Shown here in pieces: positions 4,507 to 14,097 of a stretch of 45,198 nt of DNA (position 1 is the first letter of the stretch; every line of letters begins with the position of its first letter). Below the pieces are notes generated by a model. The model was not told the DNA's origin and did not search any database. It saw nothing but the letters and a program-made list of their open reading frames with translations. The stretch lies in NCBI GenBank assembly GCA_937925855.1, contig CALAMO010000053.1, positions 1-45,198 on the forward strand, read 5' to 3'. This DNA is from an uncultured Thiotrichaceae bacterium. Lineage in GTDB: Bacteria > Pseudomonadota > Gammaproteobacteria > Thiotrichales > Thiotrichaceae. The position numbers and the translations under genes were made by a program.

Positions 4507-5271
4507 ATGCGTTTAATCGATAGTCACTGCCATTTTGATAACCCCGCGTTTAATCATGATCGCACACAGTTACAGCAGCAAATGTCCCTATACGGCGTAA
4601 CCGATATTATTATTCCGGCGACAACGGCTGCGCGCTGGCCCGACCTTAAAACACTGACGGACAGTCGGCCTAACTACCACGCCAGCTATGGTCTGCACCC
4701 CCTGTTCATGCAAGAACATAAGCCGGAACACTTGGCCCAGCTACGTCACTGGCTGGAACGTGAACCCGCGATTGCCGTCGGTGAATGCGGGCTGGACTTT
4801 TTTATTCCTGGATTTAATCAAAGCGAACAAGAGCAGCTTTTTCAACATCACTTAACTTTAGCGCGGGATTTTAATTTACCCCTTATTATTCATGCACGTA
4901 AATCCTTAGATATTATTTTAAAACATATCCGCCGCTGCGGCGATTTACGCGGCGTGATTCACAGTTTCTCTGGCAGCCAACAGCAGGCTGATCAATTAAT
5001 CGCAGCGGGCTTTTATCTCGGCATCGGCGGCACCGTGAGCTATGACCGCGCACAACGGCTGCGCCGGATTGTGCGTCAAATACCGGAAGACTATTTATTA
5101 TTGGAAACGGATGCACCGGATCAGCCAGATAGCCAATGGCGCGGCCAGCGGAATGAACCCAGCAGGCTGCCGGTTATAGCGCGGGCCGTGGCAGAAATAC
5201 GCCAGACCTCACCTGAGCATACTGCCGAGGTCACCACTGCGAATGCGCTGCGGCTGTTTGGCTTAATTTAG
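4507..5271 (+). CDS. TatD/YjjV-family metal-dependent hydrolase
   Basis: 254-residue TIM-barrel deoxyribonuclease-type hydrolase. Motifs: LIDSHCHFD (H7, H9 metal ligands), AVGECGLDF, LIIHARKS, GVIHSFSGS and LLLETDAPDQP, the standard metal-site set of the TatD family. E. coli members (TatD, YcfH, YjjV) are Mg-dependent DNases or 3'-5' exonucleases; this one has the short YjjV-like length and the SFSG hairpin. The start follows AGG about 11 nt upstream in an AT-rich leader. It stands alone on the plus strand between two minus-strand genes, so context adds nothing to function. The exact subfamily is inferred. Confidence 0.88.
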   Translation: MRLIDSHCHFDNPAFNHDRTQLQQQMSLYGVTDIIIPATTAARWPDLKTLTDSRPNYHASYGLHPLFMQEHKPEHLAQLRHWLEREPAIAVGECGLDFFIPGFNQSEQEQLFQHHLTLARDFNLPLIIHARKSLDIILKHIRRCGDLRGVIHSFSGSQQQADQLIAAGFYLGIGGTVSYDRAQRLRRIVRQIPEDYLLLETDAPDQPDSQWRGQRNEPSRLPVIARAVAEIRQTSPEHTAEVTTANALRLFGLI

Positions 5272-5326
5272 CCGCTGCCATGGGTTCTGCCTTTTGTCGA
5301 TGAGGTCAAGCCTAAGCGACTCGCCA

Positions 5327-6070
5327 TCATCCATCCTGCAACACGCTGATTTCAACCCGGCGGTTGCGCTGTTTACCCTGTAGCGTGGCGTTACTGGCGA
5401 TGGGTCGAGTGGCACCATAGCCGGTGGTCAACAGCTGTTCCGGCAACACGCCCTGGGCTAACATATAGCGGCGCAGCGTATTTGCCCGCAGCTCGGTAAG
5501 CGCCATCTGACCCAGAACCGTACCCTGATTGTCCACATGCACCGACAGCTCAACCTGAATGCCAGCGTTCGCTTGCAGCAGCGTTGCCAACCTATCCAAC
5601 ACCGGCAGCGCCGGCGGCATCAGGTCGGCGGTCGCATAGGCAAATTGCACAGCATCCAGGCTGTATTTTTCCAGCGGATGAAAACGCGGTGGGATATACA
5701 GGCCGTTCTCAAATTCCGGCTCAAATAGCGCAAGCCGCAACTCAGCCTCCTCACTCGCGGCTTGTTCCAGCTCATGCGTGACTGCGCGCACGCCCGCCAC
5801 ATTGCTAACGGTACGCACCACATCATCGACCAAATAATCATCCGCCAGTGGCCCGCTTAGCTGTGCGGCTCGCCCCTCAAACGCAATCGCTACCGGCGGC
5901 AAATCTGCCGCTAACAGCGCCTGCCGCGCCTGTTGCAGCAGCTGCATTTCCAGCTGATCTTTTTTAAAATAGGCCGTCACAGCCGATAGGATGATAGCAA
6001 ACAGTGCGGTTAACGCAATCAGGCGCATCGGAATCGGCAGCATGCGCTTATGTTTATTCAGTGCTAACAC
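5327..6070 (-). CDS. OmpA-family C-terminal domain protein with N-terminal membrane anchor
   Basis: 247 residues. Residues 16-36 (RLIALTALFAIILSAVTAYF) form a single membrane segment, so the protein is anchored in the inner membrane with its bulk in the periplasm. Residues 50-105 resemble a BON-type fold (AFEGRAAQLSGPL, then VRTVSNVAGVRAVTHELE). Residues 140-245 form an OmpA/MotB peptidoglycan-binding domain: VQFAYATADLMP, VELSVHVDN, LTELRANTLRRYML, LLTTGYGATRPI and QRNRRVEISV. In the usual OmpA motif GHTDxxG is read here as VHVDNQG, so one typical position differs. It is the last gene of the Roadblock/GTPase cluster, 27 bp after the FimV-like gene, which suggests it links that system to the cell wall. 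Confidence 0.85.
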   Translation of the reverse strand: MLALNKHKRMLPIPMRLIALTALFAIILSAVTAYFKKDQLEMQLLQQARQALLAADLPPVAIAFEGRAAQLSGPLADDYLVDDVVRTVSNVAGVRAVTHELEQAASEEAELRLALFEPEFENGLYIPPRFHPLEKYSLDAVQFAYATADLMPPALPVLDRLATLLQANAGIQVELSVHVDNQGTVLGQMALTELRANTLRRYMLAQGVLPEQLLTTGYGATRPIASNATLQGKQRNRRVEISVLQDG

Positions 6071-6097
6071 TAGATAACTCCCTCACAACGCCAGCGT

Positions 6098-8014
6098 TTA
6101 GCCGACAAATGACAGTATTTCGCGTGCTTCCTGCTGCTGCTGTGTGCCGCCGTCGCGTAAGACTTCGCGCAGCATGTCGTTCGCTGCATCTGCATTGCGC
6201 AAGTCCAGATACGCACGCGCGATATCTAGCTTAAGCGCAGCATCAGGACTGTCGGGGCGTACCGGTGCCTGACTCAGCTGCGCAATCGCATCCAGCTCAC
6301 CCGGCTCCGCCACCGGGATCACCGGATCGTTAATGGCGTGCTCGAAACCAGCAGCCACCGGTGCCGAAACCGTCGTCACCAAAGCCGGAGACGGTTTACT
6401 GCGCCGCCCCAGCAACCAAGCAATCGGCAGCAGCAGCAGAGCCAATAGCCATGGCCCAAGTGACTTCCAATCGAACGTGGGCTGTACGGTTTCGACTAGA
6501 TTAACATCATTTGCAGCCGCCGCATTGATTTGCACAATCTCATTCTGCAAGGTTGCGGCACGTTCATTAGCACTGTCCAGCGCACCCTGTAAATCCGTAT
6601 TCTTGAGCTTACTGGCTGCAAGATCACGGTTCAACTGGGTATTACTATCACCCAGCGCCGCTAGCTCAGCACGCAGACCGCTAACATCCTGCTGACTCAG
6701 GGCCAGTTCTGCCTGCTGTGCCGCCAGTTTTTCATCCAGCGTCGCATTCTCAGTCTTCAGCTGCGTGCTGCTACGCTGCAATACCGCTAACTGCTGCTGT
6801 AATTCCGGCGCATCGGCCTGGAGTAAGTCAACCTGCTGCTGCAAATCGCTGTTGCTGGCAGCAGCGGCATCTTTCGCCTGCTGCGCCACCTGTAATTGCT
6901 GCGTCAGCTCGGCGTTCTCTGCCTGCAAGTCGCTCTTGCTGGCAGCAGCGACATCTTTCGCCTGCTGCGCTGCCTGTAGTTGCTCGGTCAACTCGGCGTT
7001 CGTCGCCTGCAAGTCGGCCGCAGTCGCCGTCTGCTCACGCTGTGTCTGCTGCAAGTCGCTGAGCTGCTGGGTCAGCTGCGCGTTCGTCGCCTGTAAATCA
7101 GATACAGCAGCGGCTTGCGCATCGGCCCCCTGTTGCAGGCTTGCTAACTGTTGGCGCAGTGTCTCATTGCTACGCGCTAACTCGGCTACCTTGCTGGACT
7201 CAGCCTGCTGCGCATTATTTTGCTGCGTATTGAGCTGATCATTAAGCTGCTCATTCTGCGTTTGCAGTACGGCATGGGCAGATTTGAGCTGCTCAAATTC
7301 AGCCTGGGTGCGGCTTTGTTCGGCCTGCAGCTGAGTGAGTTCAGCCTGCGTGGCGTCGGCCCCAGCCTGCAGCTGCTGTAATGCAGTTTGTGCCGCTGTA
7401 TTGCTGCGCTGTAATTGCTGCACCGTCGACTGCTGCACCGCGTTCGCACTGACGACTGAGTTGGCGCTCAACGTTTGCAACTCGCTAATCTGCGCTTCCA
7501 GCTGCGCCAGCTCAGCATCCTGCCCGGTCTTGAGCTGTTCTAGCTGCACCAAACGATCTTGGAGCTCACGATTCTCAGCGTCAAGCTGCGCCAGCGCGCT
7601 GCTCAACTGATCACGTTCGGTGGTTAATGCCGCTGGTTCCACTGTTGGCGTCGCTGTCTCAGCAGCACGACTGCGCTGCTCACCGGCGAGTCCCGTCGTG
7701 GCCGCACGCCGCACCGCTGCCGCCGCTGGCAAATCAGCCAGCGCCGGTAGCACCAGCGTCTTGCCCACAATCAGGCGGTCGATATTGTCGTCGATGAAAG
7801 CATCCCGGTTTTTTTCCAGGATAATCTGCATCACGGCGCGCCGGTTCGCCAAATCTGGGTACGCCTGAACAACAATAGCACTCAAGGTGTCATTGCGTTT
7901 CACTTCAACTCGCGTTGGCTCCGCTGCCGTTACCGTTGCTAACTGACAGCACAACAGCAGCGCGCAGGTGTGTGCCAGCCGGTTAGGTTGGCGACGTTGG
8001 GATTTGTTGTTCAT
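6098..8014 (-). CDS. FimV-like LysM / coiled-coil / TM protein
   Basis: About 638 residues. A signal peptide (HTCALLLCCQLATVTAA) is followed by a LysM-type domain (VEVKRNDTLSAIVVQAYPD, then NRDAFIDDNIDRLIVGKTLVLP), which binds peptidoglycan. Next comes a roughly 350-residue Gln/Leu/Ala-rich coiled coil, one membrane segment (PWLLALLLLPIAWLLGRR), and a C-terminal cytoplasmic tail. The tail ends in the FimV C-terminal helix pair (DAALKLDIARAYLDLRNADAANDMLREVL, read in two parts). This architecture is that of FimV/HubP polar landmark proteins, which recruit motility and chemotaxis machinery. I choose ATG 8014 because it gives a clean signal peptide and no overlap with the Roadblock gene; 8032 and 8104 are in-frame alternatives. 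It lacks the usual asd/truA neighbourhood of the canonical fimV, so it may be a paralogue dedicated to this cluster. Confidence 0.85.
   Translation of the reverse strand: MNNKSQRRQPNRLAHTCALLLCCQLATVTAAEPTRVEVKRNDTLSAIVVQAYPDLANRRAVMQIILEKNRDAFIDDNIDRLIVGKTLVLPALADLPAAAAVRRAATTGLAGEQRSRAAETATPTVEPAALTTERDQLSSALAQLDAENRELQDRLVQLEQLKTGQDAELAQLEAQISELQTLSANSVVSANAVQQSTVQQLQRSNTAAQTALQQLQAGADATQAELTQLQAEQSRTQAEFEQLKSAHAVLQTQNEQLNDQLNTQQNNAQQAESSKVAELARSNETLRQQLASLQQGADAQAAAVSDLQATNAQLTQQLSDLQQTQREQTATAADLQATNAELTEQLQAAQQAKDVAAASKSDLQAENAELTQQLQVAQQAKDAAAASNSDLQQQVDLLQADAPELQQQLAVLQRSSTQLKTENATLDEKLAAQQAELALSQQDVSGLRAELAALGDSNTQLNRDLAASKLKNTDLQGALDSANERAATLQNEIVQINAAAANDVNLVETVQPTFDWKSLGPWLLALLLLPIAWLLGRRSKPSPALVTTVSAPVAAGFEHAINDPVIPVAEPGELDAIAQLSQAPVRPDSPDAALKLDIARAYLDLRNADAANDMLREVLRDGGTQQQQEAREILSFVG
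6841..7092 (-). repeat. 84-bp tandem repeats inside the FimV-like coiled coil
   Basis: Three consecutive 84-bp units begin at 6841, 6925 and 7009, with a degenerate continuation from 7093. Each begins near GCAAGTCG and ends near GTTCGTCGCCT. One unit encodes 28 residues, exactly four heptads (for example DLQAENAELTQQLQVAQQAK). The first two units are the most alike, indicating recent duplication. Copy number could vary between strains and so change the length of the periplasmic rod. Confidence 0.8.
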
Positions 8015-8060
8015 ATCAGCAGCCACTCTCATAGCAGATAAGCTTATCAGATAACGTCTA

Positions 8061-8423
8061 TCAGATAATTTTCCCAATGCCTTCAGCGGCACGCTTGACA
8101 TCAAGGAAAATCAGCCCTAAGCGGGCGTTTGGCTTCGCGAGTACGGTGACCACCGCATCGTTACCGGCGTGTGTCATCAGGATATAACCGGTCGCACCTT
8201 TAATCAGCACCTGTTCCAGCGCACCGCGCGCCAGCTCCTCCGCTGTACGATCACCCAGTGACAGCATGGCCGCACTCATCGCACCGACCCGGTCTTCGTC
8301 CATTCCCGCAGGAAGCAGCGAAGCCATCATGAGCCCATCGGTTGATAACACCGCCGACGCCTCAATATCCGCTGAAGAGCCGTTAAGATCACTGAGGATA
8401 GAATTCAACATTTCTGCACGCAT
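8061..8423 (-). CDS. Roadblock/LC7 domain protein (MglB/CvnB-like)
   Basis: 120 residues forming a complete Roadblock/LC7 fold: helix MLNSILSDLNGSS, strand AVLSTDGLMMASLL, helix DEDRVGAMSAAMLSLGDRTA, the GALEQVLIKGATGYILMTHA hairpin, then AVVTVLAKPNARLGLIFLDV. Proteins of this family act as regulators or activators of small Ras-like GTPases (MglB for MglA; CvnB in actinobacterial conservons). A strong Shine-Dalgarno (AAGGAGAT) precedes the ATG at 8423. It lies between a winged-helix-like protein and the FimV-like protein in the same orientation as the GTPase at 9173-9715, its likely partner. Confidence 0.93.
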   Translation of the reverse strand: MRAEMLNSILSDLNGSSADIEASAVLSTDGLMMASLLPAGMDEDRVGAMSAAMLSLGDRTAEELARGALEQVLIKGATGYILMTHAGNDAVVTVLAKPNARLGLIFLDVKRAAEGIGKII

Positions 8424-8522
8424 AGGATTTATCTCCTTTTCATCATTTCGTTGTACAAGCTTATTATCCCGTCATTACCGGAGCGGGTGCGGCTTTTAAA
8501 TCTCATTGTCTGTTACGGGAAG

Positions 8523-9173
8523 TCAGATCGACTCCATGACCGTATTGCCATAGCGAATTTCCAGCGCCCAGATAAGCTCCTTAAACGCAGGCTGGTTCAG
8601 CTGCGGCACTCCGCCAATAATCAGGGTGAAACGATTTTGGCCAATATGCACCGGCCAGAAACCCACTGCGCTGTTACCGCTGGCATCGACCAGCCCCCAG
8701 GCCTGCTGTTGATAGCCCAGGTTACCGCTCAATAACTCCTGGTGGCGGCTATACACCGTCGCCAGATTAGCGCTCAATGCCGCCAGCTCTTCCGCCGCCT
8801 CATGTGTATACCCCGCACTGCCCAGGTACAAACCGCGACTTTCAGCCAGCACCGCCTTACCTTCATCCGATAACGCCTTCAGCAAAGCGGGCAAGATAGT
8901 CTCAAGCGACGCCTCCGGTGCGCGTTCACGCTGCTCCAGACCGGCGACCAGTCCCGCTTCCTGTAGCCAGTGCACAAACTCCAGCGCCCGTCGTTTACCT
9001 AGCTTACTGAGCTTGCAGGCAATATCGACATCAAACAGCGGTGTTTCCGGTTCCTGTAACAGCTGATGCAGGAAGTTTCGCCCCGGTTCGGGCGAATCCG
9101 CTTGGATCGCATAATAAACCCCGCCGGGCGTTGCCCCCAGGTAAAGGTTTTCGGTGAGTATATATTCGCTCAT
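8523..9173 (-). CDS. Unrecognised winged-helix-like protein between GTPase and Roadblock genes
   Basis: 216 residues with no family I can name. Residues 40-80 (FDVDIACKLSKLGKRRALEF, then VHWLQEAGLVAG) have the pattern of a winged helix ending in EAGLV, similar in feel to the DUF742 component of conservons. Residues 150-215 (QQQAWGLVDASGNSAVGFWP, then FTLIIGGVPQLNQPAFKELI) look like a second alpha/beta domain, possibly a diverged Roadblock fold. Its ATG overlaps the stop of the GTPase gene as ATGA (9171-9175), so the two are translationally coupled and the products probably act together. The function is inference from context only. Confidence 0.85.
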   Translation of the reverse strand: MSEYILTENLYLGATPGGVYYAIQADSPEPGRNFLHQLLQEPETPLFDVDIACKLSKLGKRRALEFVHWLQEAGLVAGLEQRERAPEASLETILPALLKALSDEGKAVLAESRGLYLGSAGYTHEAAEELAALSANLATVYSRHQELLSGNLGYQQQAWGLVDASGNSAVGFWPVHIGQNRFTLIIGGVPQLNQPAFKELIWALEIRYGNTVMESI

Positions 9174-9715
9174 CAGGCAGTAACCCCTGGATCCAGTGAA
9201 TAGAGCAACGCCTGGACGAGAGCAGTCACATCCTTACGACTGCGGGCATCGACCTCAAATATCGGTGCCTGTATTGACAGTTCATCCAGCCAATTGCGGT
9301 AATCATTAAGACCGGGCCTACGCTGCAAATCCATGCGCGTTACCCCTAAAACCATCTGCTCTTGCTCAATAAAATCACGGAAAGCATTGGTGTAAAATTT
9401 CATATCGCGGAAGGGATCTTTCCGGGTATTATCCAGCAGTAAAATCAGCCCAATCCCCCCTTTCGTTAAAATATCCCACATAAAATCGAAGCGTTCCTGA
9501 CCCGGCGTCCCATAAAGATGAACACGCTCATCATCCCCCAAATTAATCAGGCCATAGTCCATCGCTACCGTGGTTTGTGGCTTCCGGCTTTTCGTCATGT
9601 CCGAGGCATGTTCATCGGTTTTGATCGTTTTGATGTCGCTAATCGCATCAATGGCCGTTGTTTTTCCTGCACCCACCGGTCCGGTAAAAATAATTTTCTT
9701 ATTGCTGGTAGTCAT
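9173..9715 (-). CDS. Small Ras-like GTPase of the MglA / CvnD (COG2229-type) class
   Basis: 180-residue single G-domain. G1/P-loop is GPVGAGKTT (K18, T19). The switch II region reads YGTPGQERFDFMW, so the Walker-B aspartate of classical DxxGQ is replaced, as in MglA (TVPGQ) and conservon GTPases. The G4 position is GVTRMD instead of NKxD. Strands IGLILLLDN and PIFEVDARS complete the fold. It lacks a lipidation or membrane signal. Together with the Roadblock protein it should form a nucleotide switch. It starts 5 bp after the receiver-like gene and couples by ATGA to the following gene. Confidence 0.92.
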   Translation of the reverse strand: MTTSNKKIIFTGPVGAGKTTAIDAISDIKTIKTDEHASDMTKSRKPQTTVAMDYGLINLGDDERVHLYGTPGQERFDFMWDILTKGGIGLILLLDNTRKDPFRDMKFYTNAFRDFIEQEQMVLGVTRMDLQRRPGLNDYRNWLDELSIQAPIFEVDARSRKDVTALVQALLYSLDPGVTA

Positions 9716-9720
9716 AGGGA

Positions 9721-11151
9721 TTATTTTGCGCCCCCTCCAAGTAAACGTTTCAACAGCCGTGAAAACAGCCCCCGATTTTTCCGAGGTGCTGCCGGTTCTG
9801 CCGCTGCGGGCGACACAGGCGCCTGCTCAACCGTCAGCAGGCTTAAGGTATGTGCTGCGTTATAAAAAGCGATGACGTAACGCTGGGGTATATCAAACCA
9901 CTCTGCCACATCGAATACGGTACCGGCACGCTGCTGCCAAGCTGCGGCAATCTGCATAACATGAGGGAACGCTTCCAGACGCGGCAGGTTAGGCCAATGA
10001 CGGAGTCGCAGTGGTTGAGTTAAATCCGCATTCCGGCTCAGGCGACCGCGTGAAGTCAGGAGGCTGGTTGTCCAGATCAATGCTTCCATATCGTAAGTAT
10101 TCTCAGCATCACGGCGCACCGTTTCCTCCAGCACAGCCAGTTCAGTAGTACTCGGCAAATGCAGCTGCACCGTACCGGTTTTTAACGGGCTGACACACCA
10201 AGCCGCAAATTCATCCGACAGCAACGCCGCGCTGGAATAAGCCAGATTCACATCCGGCATCAATAGCACATGGCCACGCGCCTGTGCGCCATTAATTTCC
10301 AGCTGCACGTATTGCTTAGACTGGTGTGACAGTTGAAGAGCGTCCACCAAACTATTCAGCAGGTAGTTTTCTGGCGAATACAGCGCCTCACTTTCATGCC
10401 AATGGGTGCGCGAAATCGGCTGCTCACGCCCACATAAGCTGTCCCAGCGCTGTTCCTGCTTAATGGGATCATCAACCACCTCCGCAGCGCTAAAACGCGC
10501 GCCGTCGGCGCTAGACAGTTCCTCGGCGGCCTCCAGCGGTGGCGGAATAAACACGTCTTCCGTACGCAGAAAATGCTGCTCGGGCGCTTCGAGTTCTGAC
10601 GGTTCTGGCTCGGGGGCTGATTCCGACGCCTGCACCAACGCCTCGATACACTTCGGCTGGGGTGCAACCGGCGGAGCCGCTTTGAAACGCTGCTGGCCGG
10701 ACAGGCCAAACGGTCGGAGTTCCGGGGTATTATCAGGCAACATCGGCGCAGGCGCTGCCTGGGTTTCTGCCAGCTGGGAAGGCGCTGCCGCCTGCTCAGC
10801 AGCGCTGACTGGGGCAACGACAGCGACGGGCGCCATTTCGCGGATTGTTTGCGCCGCAGCGGTCAAGGCCTTGGAGGTCAGTGGCTTGGGCACCCAGACG
10901 ACCTTATCCTCCATCGTTTCCTTCACTGAGATCACAATGGCAGGCTTAAAATCATCCGCATGCTGCGCCTGCCACTCCTGTTTGCCACCGGGATGATCAA
11001 AATCAATAATCAGTGCTTCAGCTTGCGCAGCCTCCACGGGGGTAAAGATTTTTTTACCGGCACCGGCAAAGAAAAATTCCAAAATAGCGCGGTTGTGCGG
11101 GCTAATACTCATTAGCGCCACTTTTAATGGATTATTCATCAAATTCAGCAT
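9721..11151 (-). CDS. Degenerate receiver-like protein with long Pro/Ala/Glu-rich linker
   Basis: 476 residues, family not recognised. Residues 8-115 follow the receiver (REC) pattern: strand LKVALMSIS, helix NRAILEFFFAGAGK, strand ALIIDFDHPGG, strand PAIVISVKE and VVWVPKPLTSKAL with a KP pair as in CheY-like domains. The acidic pocket is incomplete. Residues 115-240 are a disordered Ala/Pro/Glu linker. Residues 250-450 contain strand-rich segments (YVQLEINGAQARGHVLLMPD) and a helical end (FDVAEWFDIPQRYVIAFYNA), followed by a basic tail. MNNPLKV at 11139 is an alternative start. It sits directly upstream of the GTPase (5 bp) and may be its input or adaptor protein; that is inference. Confidence 0.85.
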   Translation of the reverse strand: MLNLMNNPLKVALMSISPHNRAILEFFFAGAGKKIFTPVEAAQAEALIIDFDHPGGKQEWQAQHADDFKPAIVISVKETMEDKVVWVPKPLTSKALTAAAQTIREMAPVAVVAPVSAAEQAAAPSQLAETQAAPAPMLPDNTPELRPFGLSGQQRFKAAPPVAPQPKCIEALVQASESAPEPEPSELEAPEQHFLRTEDVFIPPPLEAAEELSSADGARFSAAEVVDDPIKQEQRWDSLCGREQPISRTHWHESEALYSPENYLLNSLVDALQLSHQSKQYVQLEINGAQARGHVLLMPDVNLAYSSAALLSDEFAAWCVSPLKTGTVQLHLPSTTELAVLEETVRRDAENTYDMEALIWTTSLLTSRGRLSRNADLTQPLRLRHWPNLPRLEAFPHVMQIAAAWQQRAGTVFDVAEWFDIPQRYVIAFYNAAHTLSLLTVEQAPVSPAAAEPAAPRKNRGLFSRLLKRLLGGGAK

Positions 11152-11229
11152 CGCTCCTGCCTGTTCCCGCCCTTTATTATTGTTTTCACAGCCCGGCCTT
11201 CCCGCCCCATCACTGCATCCATACCTTAA

Positions 11230-11967
11230 TCACCAGTCCGCCGAGGCTTGCAAAGCACTGATCCAAGCTGCTGACAGCTCAGTGCCCTGCGCATTGAGGG
11301 CCAGCGCAAATTGCTCAAGCCCAACTTTATTCCGAGTGTGCTGGTAAATCGCTAACAGCTCCTGTTCCAGCTCGGGCGTCGCCTGCCCGCCAGTAAGCGC
11401 CTGCTCCAACAGCGCCTGCGCCCGCTCAATCTGCCCGTATTCGAGACAATCCTGAATTTCAGCCTGCAGGCTCTCATAGCGGTGTTCAACCTCAGTGCGC
11501 TGCGACGGCACAAGTAACTTATGTAGCTGGCGGCTGTCGCCCGTCGCGAGTACCGAACCTTTAATCCAAGCGGTACGATGCGCATCGTTGAAGTTGTTAT
11601 CCGGCATATCCTGTAACAATTGGCGGGTATCCGCGCTAATCGCATCGCCACACAATCGCATGACATGTGCTTTCAGCAACGCGCCCGACGACCCCAACGC
11701 CAAAAACAAATCCAGTACACTCCCCTCCAGGTAATCCGGCAAAGCAGCATCCTGTGCCAGCAAAATCCGCTGCACATGCGCTCTGAGATCCCGTGGATAG
11801 CGGCGTATATGATGAGAAAGATGACGCCACGTTGGTAGCGCCACAAAGCCCGCCGCAGTCGACAGGCGCAGGGAGCGTTCAGCCGACATTTTAAATGACA
11901 GGGGGAGTTGGGCTGAAGGAGCGGCAGTTCCTTCGGAAAACAATTTTCCTAGCATGCGGTTCGTCAC
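11230..11967 (-). CDS. Helical TPR-like protein with FimV-tail similarity, first gene of the GTPase cluster
   Basis: 245 residues, almost all helical. Residues 180-240 (IQDCLEYGQIERAQALLEQA, then ELEQELLAIYQHTRNKVGLE) resemble the tetratricopeptide-type segment in the cytoplasmic part of FimV proteins, where a LLEIYxxxxDxxxFE motif is common. No signal peptide or membrane segment is visible, so it should be cytoplasmic. As the first gene of the seven-gene minus-strand cluster, it lies downstream of the structured intergenic region at 11968-12310. It could be a soluble partner that binds the cytoplasmic tail of the FimV-like protein. I did not recognise a named family. Confidence 0.8.
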   Translation of the reverse strand: MTNRMLGKLFSEGTAAPSAQLPLSFKMSAERSLRLSTAAGFVALPTWRHLSHHIRRYPRDLRAHVQRILLAQDAALPDYLEGSVLDLFLALGSSGALLKAHVMRLCGDAISADTRQLLQDMPDNNFNDAHRTAWIKGSVLATGDSRQLHKLLVPSQRTEVEHRYESLQAEIQDCLEYGQIERAQALLEQALTGGQATPELEQELLAIYQHTRNKVGLEQFALALNAQGTELSAAWISALQASADW

Positions 11968-12042
11968 TCTATTAGCCCAATGGCTAAAATTCCTGGAAAA
12001 ATTCTTGTATCACTGTCAGGGACATGTCGGGGGATGCTCAAC

Positions 12043-12059
12043 AAGCAAAACGTTTGCTT
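12043..12059. promoter_or_regulatory. 17-bp dyad, candidate operator
   Basis: AAGCAAA-ACG-TTTGCTT is a perfect 7+7 inverted repeat with a 3-base spacer. The size and the CG-containing centre are like operators of LacI/GalR-type or other dimeric HTH regulators. Its place 76 bp upstream of the minus-strand cluster suggests a regulatory role. No protein is known to bind it. Confidence 0.4.
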
Positions 12060-12114
12060 CACAGTAATGAAGTGCCTTAAGCTATTCATTCACTAAGCCT
12101 TGCGTAACGCTCGA

Positions 12115-12180
12115 TAATATTTTATAGCTCATAAATACAAAATGAGCACAATTATTTTGATGATAACCTATAAAATATTA
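12115..12180. repeat. Nested inverted repeats in divergent promoter region
   Basis: A 13-bp perfect inverted repeat (12115-12127 TAATATTTTATAG against 12168-12180 CTATAAAATATTA) encloses a second one (12127-12132 GCTCAT against 12142-12147 ATGAGC, 9-nt loop). The AT-rich outer arms also contain TATAAA/TATAAT-like -10 matches on both strands. It is not followed by a T-run as a terminator would be, so an operator or a bidirectional promoter is more likely. Confidence 0.6.
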
Positions 12181-12310
12181 GCAAAGTGCGCTCTACCAGC
12201 GGCTTTTTGTTGGACATTTTTTGGTTGGGCATACAGTACTACTTGATGTTGAGCTGGCTTTCATTCAGCATGCTACCGTATCGCTGTTATTGGGTTTTGT
12301 GGAGATTAAC

Positions 12311-12685
12311 GTGCTTTACCTTACCGGTCAGATTTTATTGATTGTTGCGCTGGCAGCATTTTCCGGCCTTGTTTTGGGCTGGTGGTCACGCGGTTTAATG
12401 CCAGATATACAAGAGGATAGCCCACCTTCTACGGAAGTCGATCCCTTTGGCGCGCGCGCGCGGCTGGAACAGTGCCATCGTGATAACGCAGGACTGCGGC
12501 GCGAGCTACAGGACACCCAAGAGCAGCTTGAACAGCTACACAAAACCGCAGGCCTCACGCAGGATAAGCATCTTACGGATCGCTTGCAAACCGCCGAATC
12601 CAAGGTGACCGCCCTTATGGATGATTTGCAGTCGCGTGATGATACCATTGCCGTACTGGAAAACGAGCTGGAAAAGCTACGTTAG
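12311..12685 (+). CDS. Membrane-anchored coiled-coil protein upstream of bactofilin
   Basis: About 124 residues from the GTG at 12311, chosen because GGAG lies 6 nt upstream; an upstream TTG frame (12221) adds 30 residues with no ribosome site. Residues 2-22 (YLTGQILLIVALAAFSGLVL) form one membrane helix, followed by WWSRG and an acidic linker. The remaining 75 residues form a coiled coil (LRRELQDTQEQLEQLH, then AVLENELEKLR). The predicted form is an inner-membrane anchor with a cytoplasmic coiled-coil arm. It precedes the bactofilin gene by 112 bp and could tether the bactofilin filament to the membrane. No named family recognised. Confidence 0.8.
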   Translation: MLYLTGQILLIVALAAFSGLVLGWWSRGLMPDIQEDSPPSTEVDPFGARARLEQCHRDNAGLRRELQDTQEQLEQLHKTAGLTQDKHLTDRLQTAESKVTALMDDLQSRDDTIAVLENELEKLR

Positions 12686-12797
12686 TGCCCAACTCGCTGT
12701 GTTGAGTCACGTTTACGCTTTACCCCTCAATAACCTTTAACCCCCAATACTAATGGCTACCCCAACCTTACAACAAAAGCTTTAGGAGATGATTACG

Positions 12798-13169
12798 ATG
12801 ACAAAGACCACAACACCGGGCGCAGTTGCCGCCTCACTGTTTGAAACTGATATTGAGATTGTAGGCGACGTTTCCTTCGGCGGCGAACTCTATCTACAGG
12901 GTCGGGTTAATGGCAATCTGGTCGCCCCCAACGACTCGAATGCCTCACTATTTTTACAAGAATCGAGTGAAGTCATTGGCGAAATCCGCGTGCCGCTACT
13001 CATTGTCTCCGGCAAAGTATCAGGCGATATTTTCTCCACTCGGCGGATTTCGCTCAAAGCCGGGGCAGAAGTAGTCGGAAATATTCATTACGCTGAAATT
13101 CACGTCGAACAGGGCGCAAGCATCAACGGTAGTTTGGTATCGCTGCGTGAGTTAGAGGGCAAAAGCTAA
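12798..13169 (+). CDS. Bactofilin (polymer-forming cytoskeletal protein)
   Basis: 123 residues. The right-handed beta-helix bactofilin core (DUF583) is visible from FETDIEIVGDVSFGGELYLQ through GRVNGNL, SSEVIGEIRV, GKVSGDIFS, KAGAEVVGNIHY and GASINGSL, with the regular hydrophobic/Gly spacing of about 17-18 residues per turn. Bactofilins polymerise without nucleotide at membranes and organise polar, stalk or cell-wall functions; in Myxococcus they interact with small-GTPase systems. I use the ATG at 12798, since AGGAG at 12784-12788 abuts the ATG at 12789 but is 9 nt from 12798. Short flanking tails fit the family. Confidence 0.95.
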   Translation: MTKTTTPGAVAASLFETDIEIVGDVSFGGELYLQGRVNGNLVAPNDSNASLFLQESSEVIGEIRVPLLIVSGKVSGDIFSTRRISLKAGAEVVGNIHYAEIHVEQGASINGSLVSLRELEGKS

Positions 13170-13209
13170 CAGCCCTGTCTGGTGCAGTGACTTCTGGAAT
13201 AATCGCATT

Positions 13210-14097
13210 ATGCCACCTAAAACCCGACTTACCAGCCTGCATCATCGCCTGCGTTATTACAGTCAGCTCATGCGCATTGAGCGCCCTATTGGCACTTACT
13301 TATTACTGTGGCCGACCTTGTGGGCACTTTGGATTGCGGCGGAGGGCGTACCCGACGAATTGATTCTGCTGATATTTGTCGCGGGCGTGTTTATTATGCG
13401 CTCGGCGGGCTGTGTGATTAATGATATTGCGGATCGCAAGGTCGACGGTGCCGTAGCACGCACAAAAGACCGCCCACTGGCCGCAGGTAAAGTCAGCACT
13501 GGTGAAGCGCTGGGCTTGTTCGGCGCCCTCCTCTTTCTGGCGTTCATCTTAGTGCTGCAGCTCAACACACTGACACTGCTGTTTGCACTAGTCGGTGCGC
13601 TGCTAGCGGCCAGTTACCCCTTTATGAAGCGCTACCACCCTTTCCCACAGGTTTATCTAGGTGCTGCGTTCGGCTGGTCTATTCCCATGGCGTTTACCGC
13701 CGTTACCGGCGACTATCCGCCACCGGTTGCCTGGCTGCTGTTCTGCGCTAATCTGATCTGGACGACGGGCTATGACACGATGTATGGCATGTGTGATCGC
13801 GAAGATGATCTGAAGATTGGCGTCAAATCAACCGCCATCTTCTTCGGTACCTATGATCGCCTGGGCGTCGGCCTGACTCAGCTCCTGGCCCTGATCATGC
13901 TGCTACAAGCAGGCGCACTCGCTGGCCTCGGCCACTGGTTCAAATGGGGCCTACTTAGCGCTGCCCTGTTCTTTATCTATCAGCAATACCTGATTCGGGC
14001 GCGTGACCGCTGGCTCTGTTTGCAGGCCTTTCTGAATAATACCTGGCCGGGCATGATGATTTTTCTAGGCATTGCCGCTCACTACGCTTGGTCGTAA
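13210..14097 (+). CDS. ubiA: 4-hydroxybenzoate polyprenyltransferase
   Basis: Integral membrane prenyltransferase that attaches the polyprenyl tail to 4-hydroxybenzoate in ubiquinone synthesis. 295 residues, as E. coli UbiA (290). Both Asp-rich Mg-diphosphate motifs are present: CVINDIADRKVDGAVART near residue 75 and YGMCDREDDLKIGVKSTA near 195. At least seven hydrophobic segments are visible. MRIERPIGTYLLLWPTLWAL is the typical first membrane segment. ubiC is not adjacent. The gene starts 40 bp after bactofilin in the same direction; the SIMPL-domain gene follows. Confidence 0.96.
   Translation: MPPKTRLTSLHHRLRYYSQLMRIERPIGTYLLLWPTLWALWIAAEGVPDELILLIFVAGVFIMRSAGCVINDIADRKVDGAVARTKDRPLAAGKVSTGEALGLFGALLFLAFILVLQLNTLTLLFALVGALLAASYPFMKRYHPFPQVYLGAAFGWSIPMAFTAVTGDYPPPVAWLLFCANLIWTTGYDTMYGMCDREDDLKIGVKSTAIFFGTYDRLGVGLTQLLALIMLLQAGALAGLGHWFKWGLLSAALFFIYQQYLIRARDRWLCLQAFLNNTWPGMMIFLGIAAHYAWS

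Follow-up and report, generated by a model that had tools for sequence, protein, structure and literature searches.

A gene cluster of an uncultured Thiotrichaceae bacterium that links a putative Group 3 MglA-type switch to FimV-like and bactofilin genes

Introduction

What kind of system is encoded by nine neighboring genes that join a small GTPase and a Roadblock protein to a FimV-like protein, an OmpA-type protein and a bactofilin, and has it been described before? The question is raised by positions 5327–13169 of a stretch of 45,198 nucleotides, analyzed here as a whole (the window), from an uncultured Thiotrichaceae bacterium (GenBank assembly GCA_937925855.1, contig CALAMO010000053.1). 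The window is contig C53 in a genome of 3.57 Mb, and Thiotrichaceae such as Thiothrix, Thiolinea, and Leucothrix are its closest named records among the best 80 of 550 confirmed places. An earlier note, made from the nucleotide letters alone, had described seven genes on the minus strand and two divergent genes on the plus strand, and had proposed an undescribed polar or envelope-organizing system in which the GTPase switch sets where the FimV-like rod and the bactofilin assemble. The list of open reading frames (ORFs) bears out this layout, with nine ORFs at 5327–13169, seven on the minus and two on the plus strand.

The main text of the survey by Wuichet and Sogaard-Andersen (2014; PMC4316618) describes Group 3 MglA systems as occurring almost only in Beta- and Gammaproteobacteria and as consisting of a receiver/winged-helix protein, both folds of which were assigned by Phyre2, an MglA homologue, and one or two MglB homologues. 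The same text characterizes the Group 3 GTPase by GTPGQ, by a G2 motif without the arginine, by an unusual G4 and by DAR in G5. These systems were reported from pathogens and also occur in environmental bacteria; the sole experimental lead that we found is from Snodgrassella, a Group 3 genome, in which an orphan mglB carried a point mutation. According to the relevant part of that paper (PMC11112851), the mutation gave motile flares on soft agar, which its authors read as altered motility by type IV pili (T4P), and better colonization of a non-native host.

Results

The Core of the Cluster Fits Group 3 MglA Systems

The small GTPase (9173–9715, minus strand; ATP_bind_1 46.5 bits, Ras 27.6 bits) has all four features of the Group 3 motifs: G3 reads GTPGQ, G2 is without an arginine finger, G4 is TRMD, which departs from [NT]KxD, and G5 is DAR. 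The features of Group 1, namely the G2 arginine finger and TVPGQ, were not found in this protein, which has TT in G2 and GTPGQ in G3. Among 91 operon GTPases, GTPGQ was present in 89, DAR in 81 and the strict TTxA[MF]D in 83; the commonest G4 was TRMD (42), the lysine was kept in at least 10 and six gave no G4 match. The cluster also agrees with the published composition in having a Roadblock gene and, as a likely second one, the Roadblock-like half of the winged-helix-like protein (wH), and in occurring in beta- and gammaproteobacterial taxa. In the receiver-like protein (rec), a resemblance to receivers and a variable linker were seen.

In Neisseria, a Group 3 genus named in the main text of the 2014 survey (PMC4316618), the matches are ordered tpr–rec–GTPase–wH–Roadblock, with the GTPase match (55%) in two pieces. 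In this gonococcal record (L219) the tpr, rec and GTPase matches are spread over several frames and look broken; the Neisseria gonorrhoeae record is listed as a plasmid in PLSDB and, with 2.17 Mb, is probably a chromosome. A GTPase tree, whose references were five sequences other than those of the 2014 paper, set the window protein and its relatives apart from the CvnD-type and Thermus/Deinococcus references, with low support at most internal nodes. Domain scans revealed no histidine kinase and no DUF742 match among the nine genes. According to the GTPase motifs and the Neisseria gene order, the core fits Group 3 MglA, a published class, so that the proposal of an undescribed system does not hold for this part of the cluster.

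Several of the domain assignments in the earlier note passed curated cutoffs in family-profile scans of the window proteins, namely OmpA, Roadblock, the small GTPase, the bactofilin and the C-terminal domain of FimV. For the TPR-like, receiver-like and winged-helix-like genes these scans gave no match above any curated cutoff; the TPR and receiver assignments are supported by profiles compared with the PDB, and that of LysM proved weak (see below).

Linkage to FimV-like and Bactofilin Genes Outlives Most of the Flanks

Conservation within the family was assessed in one stretch from each of 23 relatives (L032–L054). The set rec–GTPase–wH–Roadblock was matched in all 23 loci, the TPR gene in 22, the bactofilin gene (12789–13169, plus strand; PF04519 75.7 bits, cutoff 27.9) in 20, fimV in 19, and the gene for a small membrane coiled-coil protein (12221–12685, plus strand; hydrophobic segments within residues 6–57) in 18. 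The co-occurrence of all nine genes, proposed earlier as a check, was found in nine loci (L032, L033, L035, L037, and L039–L043), and some of the others end at contig borders. In the nine loci L044–L052, which come from four genera and have changed flanks, the five core genes and fimV were present in all nine, bactofilin in eight and the coiled-coil gene in six; of the flanking genes, ubiA was found once and tatD and the metallophosphoesterase gene not at all, short contigs being partly responsible for these losses. Because the core, fimV and bactofilin are kept where the flanks are mostly gone, the cluster appears to be more than a chance neighborhood. The genomic coupling of the GTPase/Roadblock switch to the FimV-like and bactofilin genes is thereby confirmed, as the linkage outlives most of the flanking synteny and a bactofilin stands at the cluster in two bacterial groups.

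The OmpA-type peptidoglycan-binding protein (5327–6070, minus strand; PF00691 53.7 bits, cutoff 27.2; N-terminal hydrophobic segment 9–36) was matched at 269 bits or more in nine of the 23 family loci, with two weaker matches (82 and 58 bits). It is a strong member in Thiothrix-like genera only, and local to them; it and the coiled-coil gene are the looser members of the cluster.

Beyond the family, a tree of wH and Roadblock with 103 tips contained 44 tips with fimV within the fetched stretch, 41 with bactofilin and 38 with both. Their distribution required four changes for fimV and six for bactofilin, against approximately 33 and 32, respectively, in 300 shuffles. Six tips had fimV only. One of them, L112, has a bactofilin gene by coordinates that ORF calling missed, and is scored in the tree counts as lacking it; others are short contigs. 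Three tips had bactofilin only. The carriers are Thiotrichaceae outside the Cocleimonas flava clade, two gammaproteobacterial metagenome-assembled genomes (MAGs; L104 and L116) and the Sphaerotilus/Leptothrix group, and in L169 a lone bactofilin gene lies further off. Twelve other betaproteobacterial loci of the Sphaerotilus family, one of them near a contig end, have a different gene order and gave no fimV or bactofilin match above 20 bits. The named cultured carriers (Thiothrix, Thiolinea, Thiofilum, Leucothrix, Sphaerotilus, and Leptothrix) are filamentous genera.

Two bactofilins were found in 21 of 24 family genomes, one of them at the cluster in all 21, and in the window genome two were found; in the further carriers, one bactofilin lies at the cluster by coordinates in 10 of 10. 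In a midpoint-rooted tree of 52 bactofilin sequences, a short domain, the gammaproteobacterial cluster copies formed one clade (0.91), and the betaproteobacterial cluster copies grouped with betaproteobacterial housekeeping copies (0.90), which suggests that the bactofilin was recruited or replaced separately in the Betaproteobacteria. Its orientation differs between the groups and the linkage persists.

Two concatenated trees placed the Sphaerotilus/Leptothrix clusters next to those of Thiotrichaceae and L104/L116 (0.85 and 0.875), and the one with the support of 0.875 also set them apart from ordinary betaproteobacterial clusters. This placement suggests horizontal transfer. However, a tree of the GTPase alone did not place Sphaerotilus (L107 and L112) beside the window and L104; its supports are low, and it contradicts both concatenated trees.

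A Short FimV-like Protein and a TPR-Type Partner

The FimV-like protein (6098–8014, minus strand) consists of a signal-like segment, a coiled coil, one hydrophobic segment and a C-terminal FimV TPR-type domain (TIGR03504 35.0 bits, cutoff 30.65). Its start was moved by eye from TTG 8104 to the more likely ATG 8014, which is then followed by the signal-like segment; the hydrophobic segments lie at residues 13–31 and 517–537. The earlier description of a LysM/coiled-coil FimV-like protein thus stands for the C-terminal domain, and its LysM part is weakly supported: TIGR03505 (cutoff 43.45) gave no match in the window protein and stayed below the cutoff in two relatives (L042 26.4 bits, L073 22.9 bits), with L104 (64.9) and L107 (59.6) above it. 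A separate, longer FimV frame of 1330 amino acids is present in the window genome (G000:C27), and 21 of 24 family genomes have another FimV match away from the cluster that is stronger and lies in a longer frame, the three without it being 67–81% complete. In Leucothrix and relatives (L084, L085, L090, and L092), two FimV-like genes follow the Roadblock gene in tandem.

The TPR-type protein (11230–11967, minus strand), a putative adaptor, is TPR-like in its C-terminal part, as judged from its profile (A5) against the PDB. The matches include TPR chains of the kinesin light chain type (9.1e-13 and 3e-8), FimV (4mal, 0.0089) and LapB (0.07). The hhalign comparison of the TPR family with the C-terminus of the cluster FimV gave a probability of 69 (E = 4.4e-5, 32 columns); this resemblance to the FimV TPRs makes a contact with the tail of the FimV-like protein plausible.

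A Roadblock Protein and a Possible Second One

The Roadblock/LC7 protein (8061–8423, minus strand; PF03259 53.2 bits, cutoff 23; PDB 7f8m, E = 3.8e-30) is strongly conserved, with a mean column identity of 89% over 22 aligned rows (alignment A3). Its neighbor wH (8523–9173, minus strand) is a two-part protein, for which the earlier name "winged-helix-like" may be only partly apt: the best PDB match of its profile (A4) was the Roadblock protein CvnB5 (3leq, E = 0.0021) over residues 89–143, followed by five phosphoinositide kinase subunit entries (0.069–0.11), another Roadblock (0.15) and LAMTOR2 entries (about 0.5). The Amphritea homologue reached 19.1 bits with PF03259, below the cutoff of 23. 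The C-terminal half of wH thus resembles a second Roadblock, a resemblance that is new here, and the presence of two Roadblock-type proteins would fit the frequent occurrence of such proteins in heteromeric complexes, as noted in part of the text of PMC9481161.

Pairwise identity was compared in two sets of 11 loci each, using the first 40 possible pairs; the depth of the sets differs, and the GTPase-less one, from Oceanospirillaceae, is a closer-knit clade. In this set the identity was 96.8% for Roadblock, 66.0% for wH and 45.8% for rec, and in the GTPase-bearing set 79.6%, 49.9%, and 31.3%, respectively. The constraint on Roadblock is not explained by the GTPase alone.

A second GTPase module occurs in the family (L057 and L059–L066, e.g., L062:9143–10294), in which a GTPase and a Roadblock-like C-terminal domain form one chain. 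The profile of the fused domain (A7) matched dynein roadblock chains best (E = 0.0079), and the module is followed by a protein of about 214 amino acids and, in the two loci that were scanned, by a dCache-HAMP membrane sensor. This paralogous single chain supports the view that GTPase and Roadblock work together.

The Tail of the Receiver-like Protein

The rec protein (9721–11151, minus strand) comprises a degenerate receiver, a long linker, a conserved C-terminal domain and a terminal basic amphipathic helix (RGLFSRLLKRLLGGG), so that the window protein ends in ...PRKNRGLFSRLLKRLLGGGAK. Its profile (A6) matched the receiver 2zwm in the PDB (E = 0.0075), and of the receiver residues (n = 26) D52 is kept in 25, S/T75 in 20, K89 in 25, and P90 in all 26, the usual acidic pair being mostly missing.

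Among 107 loci with distinct tails (L089, with rec and GTPase merged in one frame, was dropped), the terminal helix pattern was present in 85 of the 90 with a GTPase match in the stretch, compared to 4 of the 17 without; random stretches taken from inside these proteins gave a background of 55 in 2600. In a comparison of length over 108 loci, L089 included, either more than 20 residues followed the conserved C-terminal motif or this motif could not be located in 90 of 90 GTPase loci versus 5 of 18 others. The 13 tail-less loci are of the Oceanospirillaceae type (Amphritea, Pontibacterium, Marinobacterium, Motiliproteus, and MAGs), form one clade in the tree and have short TPR proteins (150–176 amino acids). 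In 14 betaproteobacterial loci, whose tails were judged by eye, a similar helix (e.g., RRGFFKSLLDKLF) was seen in 9 of 9 with GTPase and in 0 of 5 without it, absence here meaning absence within the stretch and some rec being assigned by position, with a weak or no profile match.

Escherichia coli MinD, as read from its gene, ends in EEEKKGFLKRLFGG, and the rec tail resembles this end (...EEKKGFLKRLFGG). The C-terminal end of MinD is a membrane-targeting sequence. We therefore describe the rec tail, which the earlier note had not seen, as a new putative membrane helix of the MinD-like, basic amphipathic kind; it argues for a role at the membrane and against a simple DNA-binding regulator, and it may possibly also be a docking peptide for the GTPase.

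Patchy Distribution and Companion Genes

The distribution of the system is patchy. Among 276 Gammaproteobacteria genomes, 42 had a match to the Roadblock family A3, which exceeded 160 bits in 35 (hand count); among 299 genomes from the Sphaerotilus family, 23 had one, some weakly. The wH family was searched in 397 genomes of the phylum and matched 8, two weakly. In many genomes the genes that follow Roadblock encode a PAS protein and a binding protein of the PhnD-like kind (e.g., L073:7740–8971 and L138:10443–11665), a pair that the earlier note had not seen and that is not at the window cluster; no PhnD-like match was obtained in the window genome. A PhnD-like match was present in 19 of 39 genomes at E of 0.001 or better, in some weakly.

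Discussion

On balance, we regard it as somewhat more likely than not that the locus encodes a Group 3 switch of GTPase and Roadblock that is tethered to the membrane, is held in place by a bactofilin and a FimV-like landmark, and probably controls polar or surface behavior. This reading builds on the gene content, the synteny, the domain resemblances and motifs, the shared absence of tail and GTPase, and the linkage of fimV and bactofilin; membrane binding, complex formation, positioning and output are its predicted parts. Control of the GTPase would fall to the two Roadblock-type proteins, of which wH has an additional domain at its N-terminus, and rec would gather the complex at the inner membrane by its amphipathic tail, with the TPR protein as adaptor or effector. 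In this subtype the position of the complex in the envelope would be set by two dedicated proteins, a bactofilin and a short FimV-like protein that would extend from the periplasm into the cytoplasm, where its TPR-type domain would lie; in Thiothrix-like genera the OmpA-type protein may add a wall anchor. As its output, the switch would most likely determine where a machine of the surface or the pole, such as T4P, is placed or how active it is. As regards the direction of control, a scaffold that holds the switch fits as well as a switch that places the FimV rod and bactofilin.

Several observations weigh against this interpretation. Other cluster proteins show the helix pattern as well, in 153 of their 703 tails, so that alone it is unspecific; four GTPase-less loci have the tail and five GTPase loci lack the pattern; and the best 11-residue moment within the last 26 residues of MinD lies outside its terminal helix. 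Of the nine genomes with a GTPase-less operon that were searched, three had no A1 GTPase match anywhere, the other six having copies elsewhere, and Roadblock does not seem relaxed where the operon GTPase is missing, so that its main partner need not be the GTPase. Contrary to the PDB results, the profile–profile comparisons of A3 revealed no relation to the wH family (probability 1.1) or to the fused domain (8.1), and Pfam gave no Roadblock match for either. The loci share ancestry, and counts of them are not independent; in one genome (G007), fimV–ompA–tatD–metallophosphoesterase and the core are found on separate contigs (L163). As to the output, PilM_2 matches occur in 257 of 276 genomes (247 over the cutoff), and their co-occurrence with the system says little.

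Among the alternatives, the most serious is that the genes for bactofilin and for the FimV-like, coiled-coil and OmpA-type proteins have become neighbors by descent, with no functional tie to the switch. Their restriction mainly to one part of the tree, the local occurrence of OmpA, the five of 23 family loci with no match to the coiled-coil gene and the split arrangement in G007 all agree with this, but the genes are kept where most flanks were lost, the second bactofilin stands at the locus in every one of the 21 two-bactofilin family genomes, and the betaproteobacterial cluster bactofilins appear to have been acquired or replaced separately, with the linkage persisting in spite of a changed orientation. 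We consider this explanation unlikely. Transcriptional signaling, in which rec is a DNA-binding regulator and the GTPase and Roadblock gate transcription, as the main text of PMC4316618 suggested for Group 3, can draw on the Phyre2 folds of the published partner and on the receiver resemblance seen here. We nevertheless think it rather improbable, since membrane binding accounts better for the tail seen in nearly all GTPase-bearing loci, the acidic pair usual in receivers is mostly missing, and the genes are linked to those for the FimV-like protein and bactofilin.

By a shade less credible than transcriptional gating is a sensory integrator in which Roadblock, wH, rec, PAS and the PhnD-like protein form a conserved redox- or ligand-sensing body, with the GTPase, the tail and the TPR end as optional output. 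The 13 tail-less, GTPase-less operons would suit it, as they keep tpr, rec, wH, Roadblock and PAS, with PhnD in all but one, which is cut short, and their Roadblock is not relaxed; however, the window and many relatives keep the GTPase in a cluster that has no such pair of PAS and PhnD-like genes. An analogue of the conservons (Group 2), that is, a developmental G-protein system coupled to a receptor kinase, is very improbable: despite shared GTPase motifs, a Roadblock partner and CvnB5 as the best structural match of wH, the missing kinase and DUF742 had already disfavored it, and the GTPase shares 34–36% identity with three CvnD-type proteins, from which it is separated in the tree.

Returning to the membrane-tethered switch, a broader proposal can be formulated, which we offer tentatively and with more doubt than confidence: Group 3 Mgl systems may act at the membrane through a MinD-like rec helix that is gained and lost with the GTPase, and the subtype with FimV-like protein and bactofilin may be a polarity module of filamentous bacteria, shared horizontally between Thiotrichaceae and Sphaerotilus/Leptothrix, with its bactofilin recruited separately. 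Our confidence in this broader proposal was slightly lowered, because the GTPase-only tree fails to show the placement.

The comparison with known systems places the cluster closest to Group 3 MglA, with which it shares the receiver-like partner, the GTPGQ/DAR GTPase with an unusual G4, the Roadblock partners, the beta- and gammaproteobacterial range and the Neisseria gene order. We know of no FimV-like partner of the Myxococcus Mgl proteins. The likeness to Myxococcus MglA/MglB (SofG, SgmX, and bactofilin) lies in a GTPase with a Roadblock regulator, a TPR effector, SgmX, which acts for MglA on pili according to part of the text of PMC7519303, and a bactofilin (from a cited title only); Myxococcus differs in having Group 1 instead of Group 3 motifs in G2 and G3, and the genes for the response-regulator partners of its MglA lie away from mglA (main text of PMC4316618). 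Like FimV/HubP, the cluster protein has the C-terminal TIGR03504 domain and signal-like and internal hydrophobic segments, but it is shorter and its LysM region is below the cutoff or without a match. The Streptomyces conservons (CvnA–D) share the pair of Roadblock and GTPase, but have a different partner protein, DUF742 having been seen beside a CvnD-type gene, and the nine genes here include no kinase.

Relative to the main text of PMC4316618, what is added here to Group 3 comprises the partners of TPR, PAS and PhnD-like type, the amphipathic rec tail and the subtype with a FimV-like protein and bactofilin. In a term search of that text, bactofilin appeared only within the title of a cited work, and FimV, TPR, PAS domain and phosphonate did not occur. 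Within the open-licence literature searched, as judged from titles and the openings of abstracts, the combination is not described. The cluster thus names concrete partners for an almost unstudied switch, and the pairing recurs in filamentous bacteria of two lineages. The tail offers a physical mechanism for placing the switch at the membrane, and the operons that lack both GTPase and tail, in two lineages, are natural experiments. If the coupling to FimV-like protein and bactofilin is true, a small GTPase, a polar landmark and a bactofilin, which have been studied separately as polarity devices, would be joined in one locus.

Additional Observations

The region between the divergent tpr and coiled-coil genes spans 11968–12220. 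A scan of positions 4800–13300 for promoters and terminators was not above chance (5 promoter-like sites versus 5.7 expected and 9 terminator-like sites versus 9.4). A defense system was considered and rejected, as PADLOC gave only weak matches among seven proteins (22.4 bits for the FimV-like protein and 20.6 bits for the GTPase). Co-occurrence with T4P was likewise set aside: PilM at E < 1e-50 was found in 33 of the 35 genomes with Roadblock above 160 bits and in about 173 of 241 others (hand count), a difference confounded by ancestry. In some loci, including those of Halothiobacillus and Methylophaga MAGs, an extra PhnD-like gene lies between wH and Roadblock (L137:8717–9472, L133:9210–9962, L129, L111, L121, and L166).

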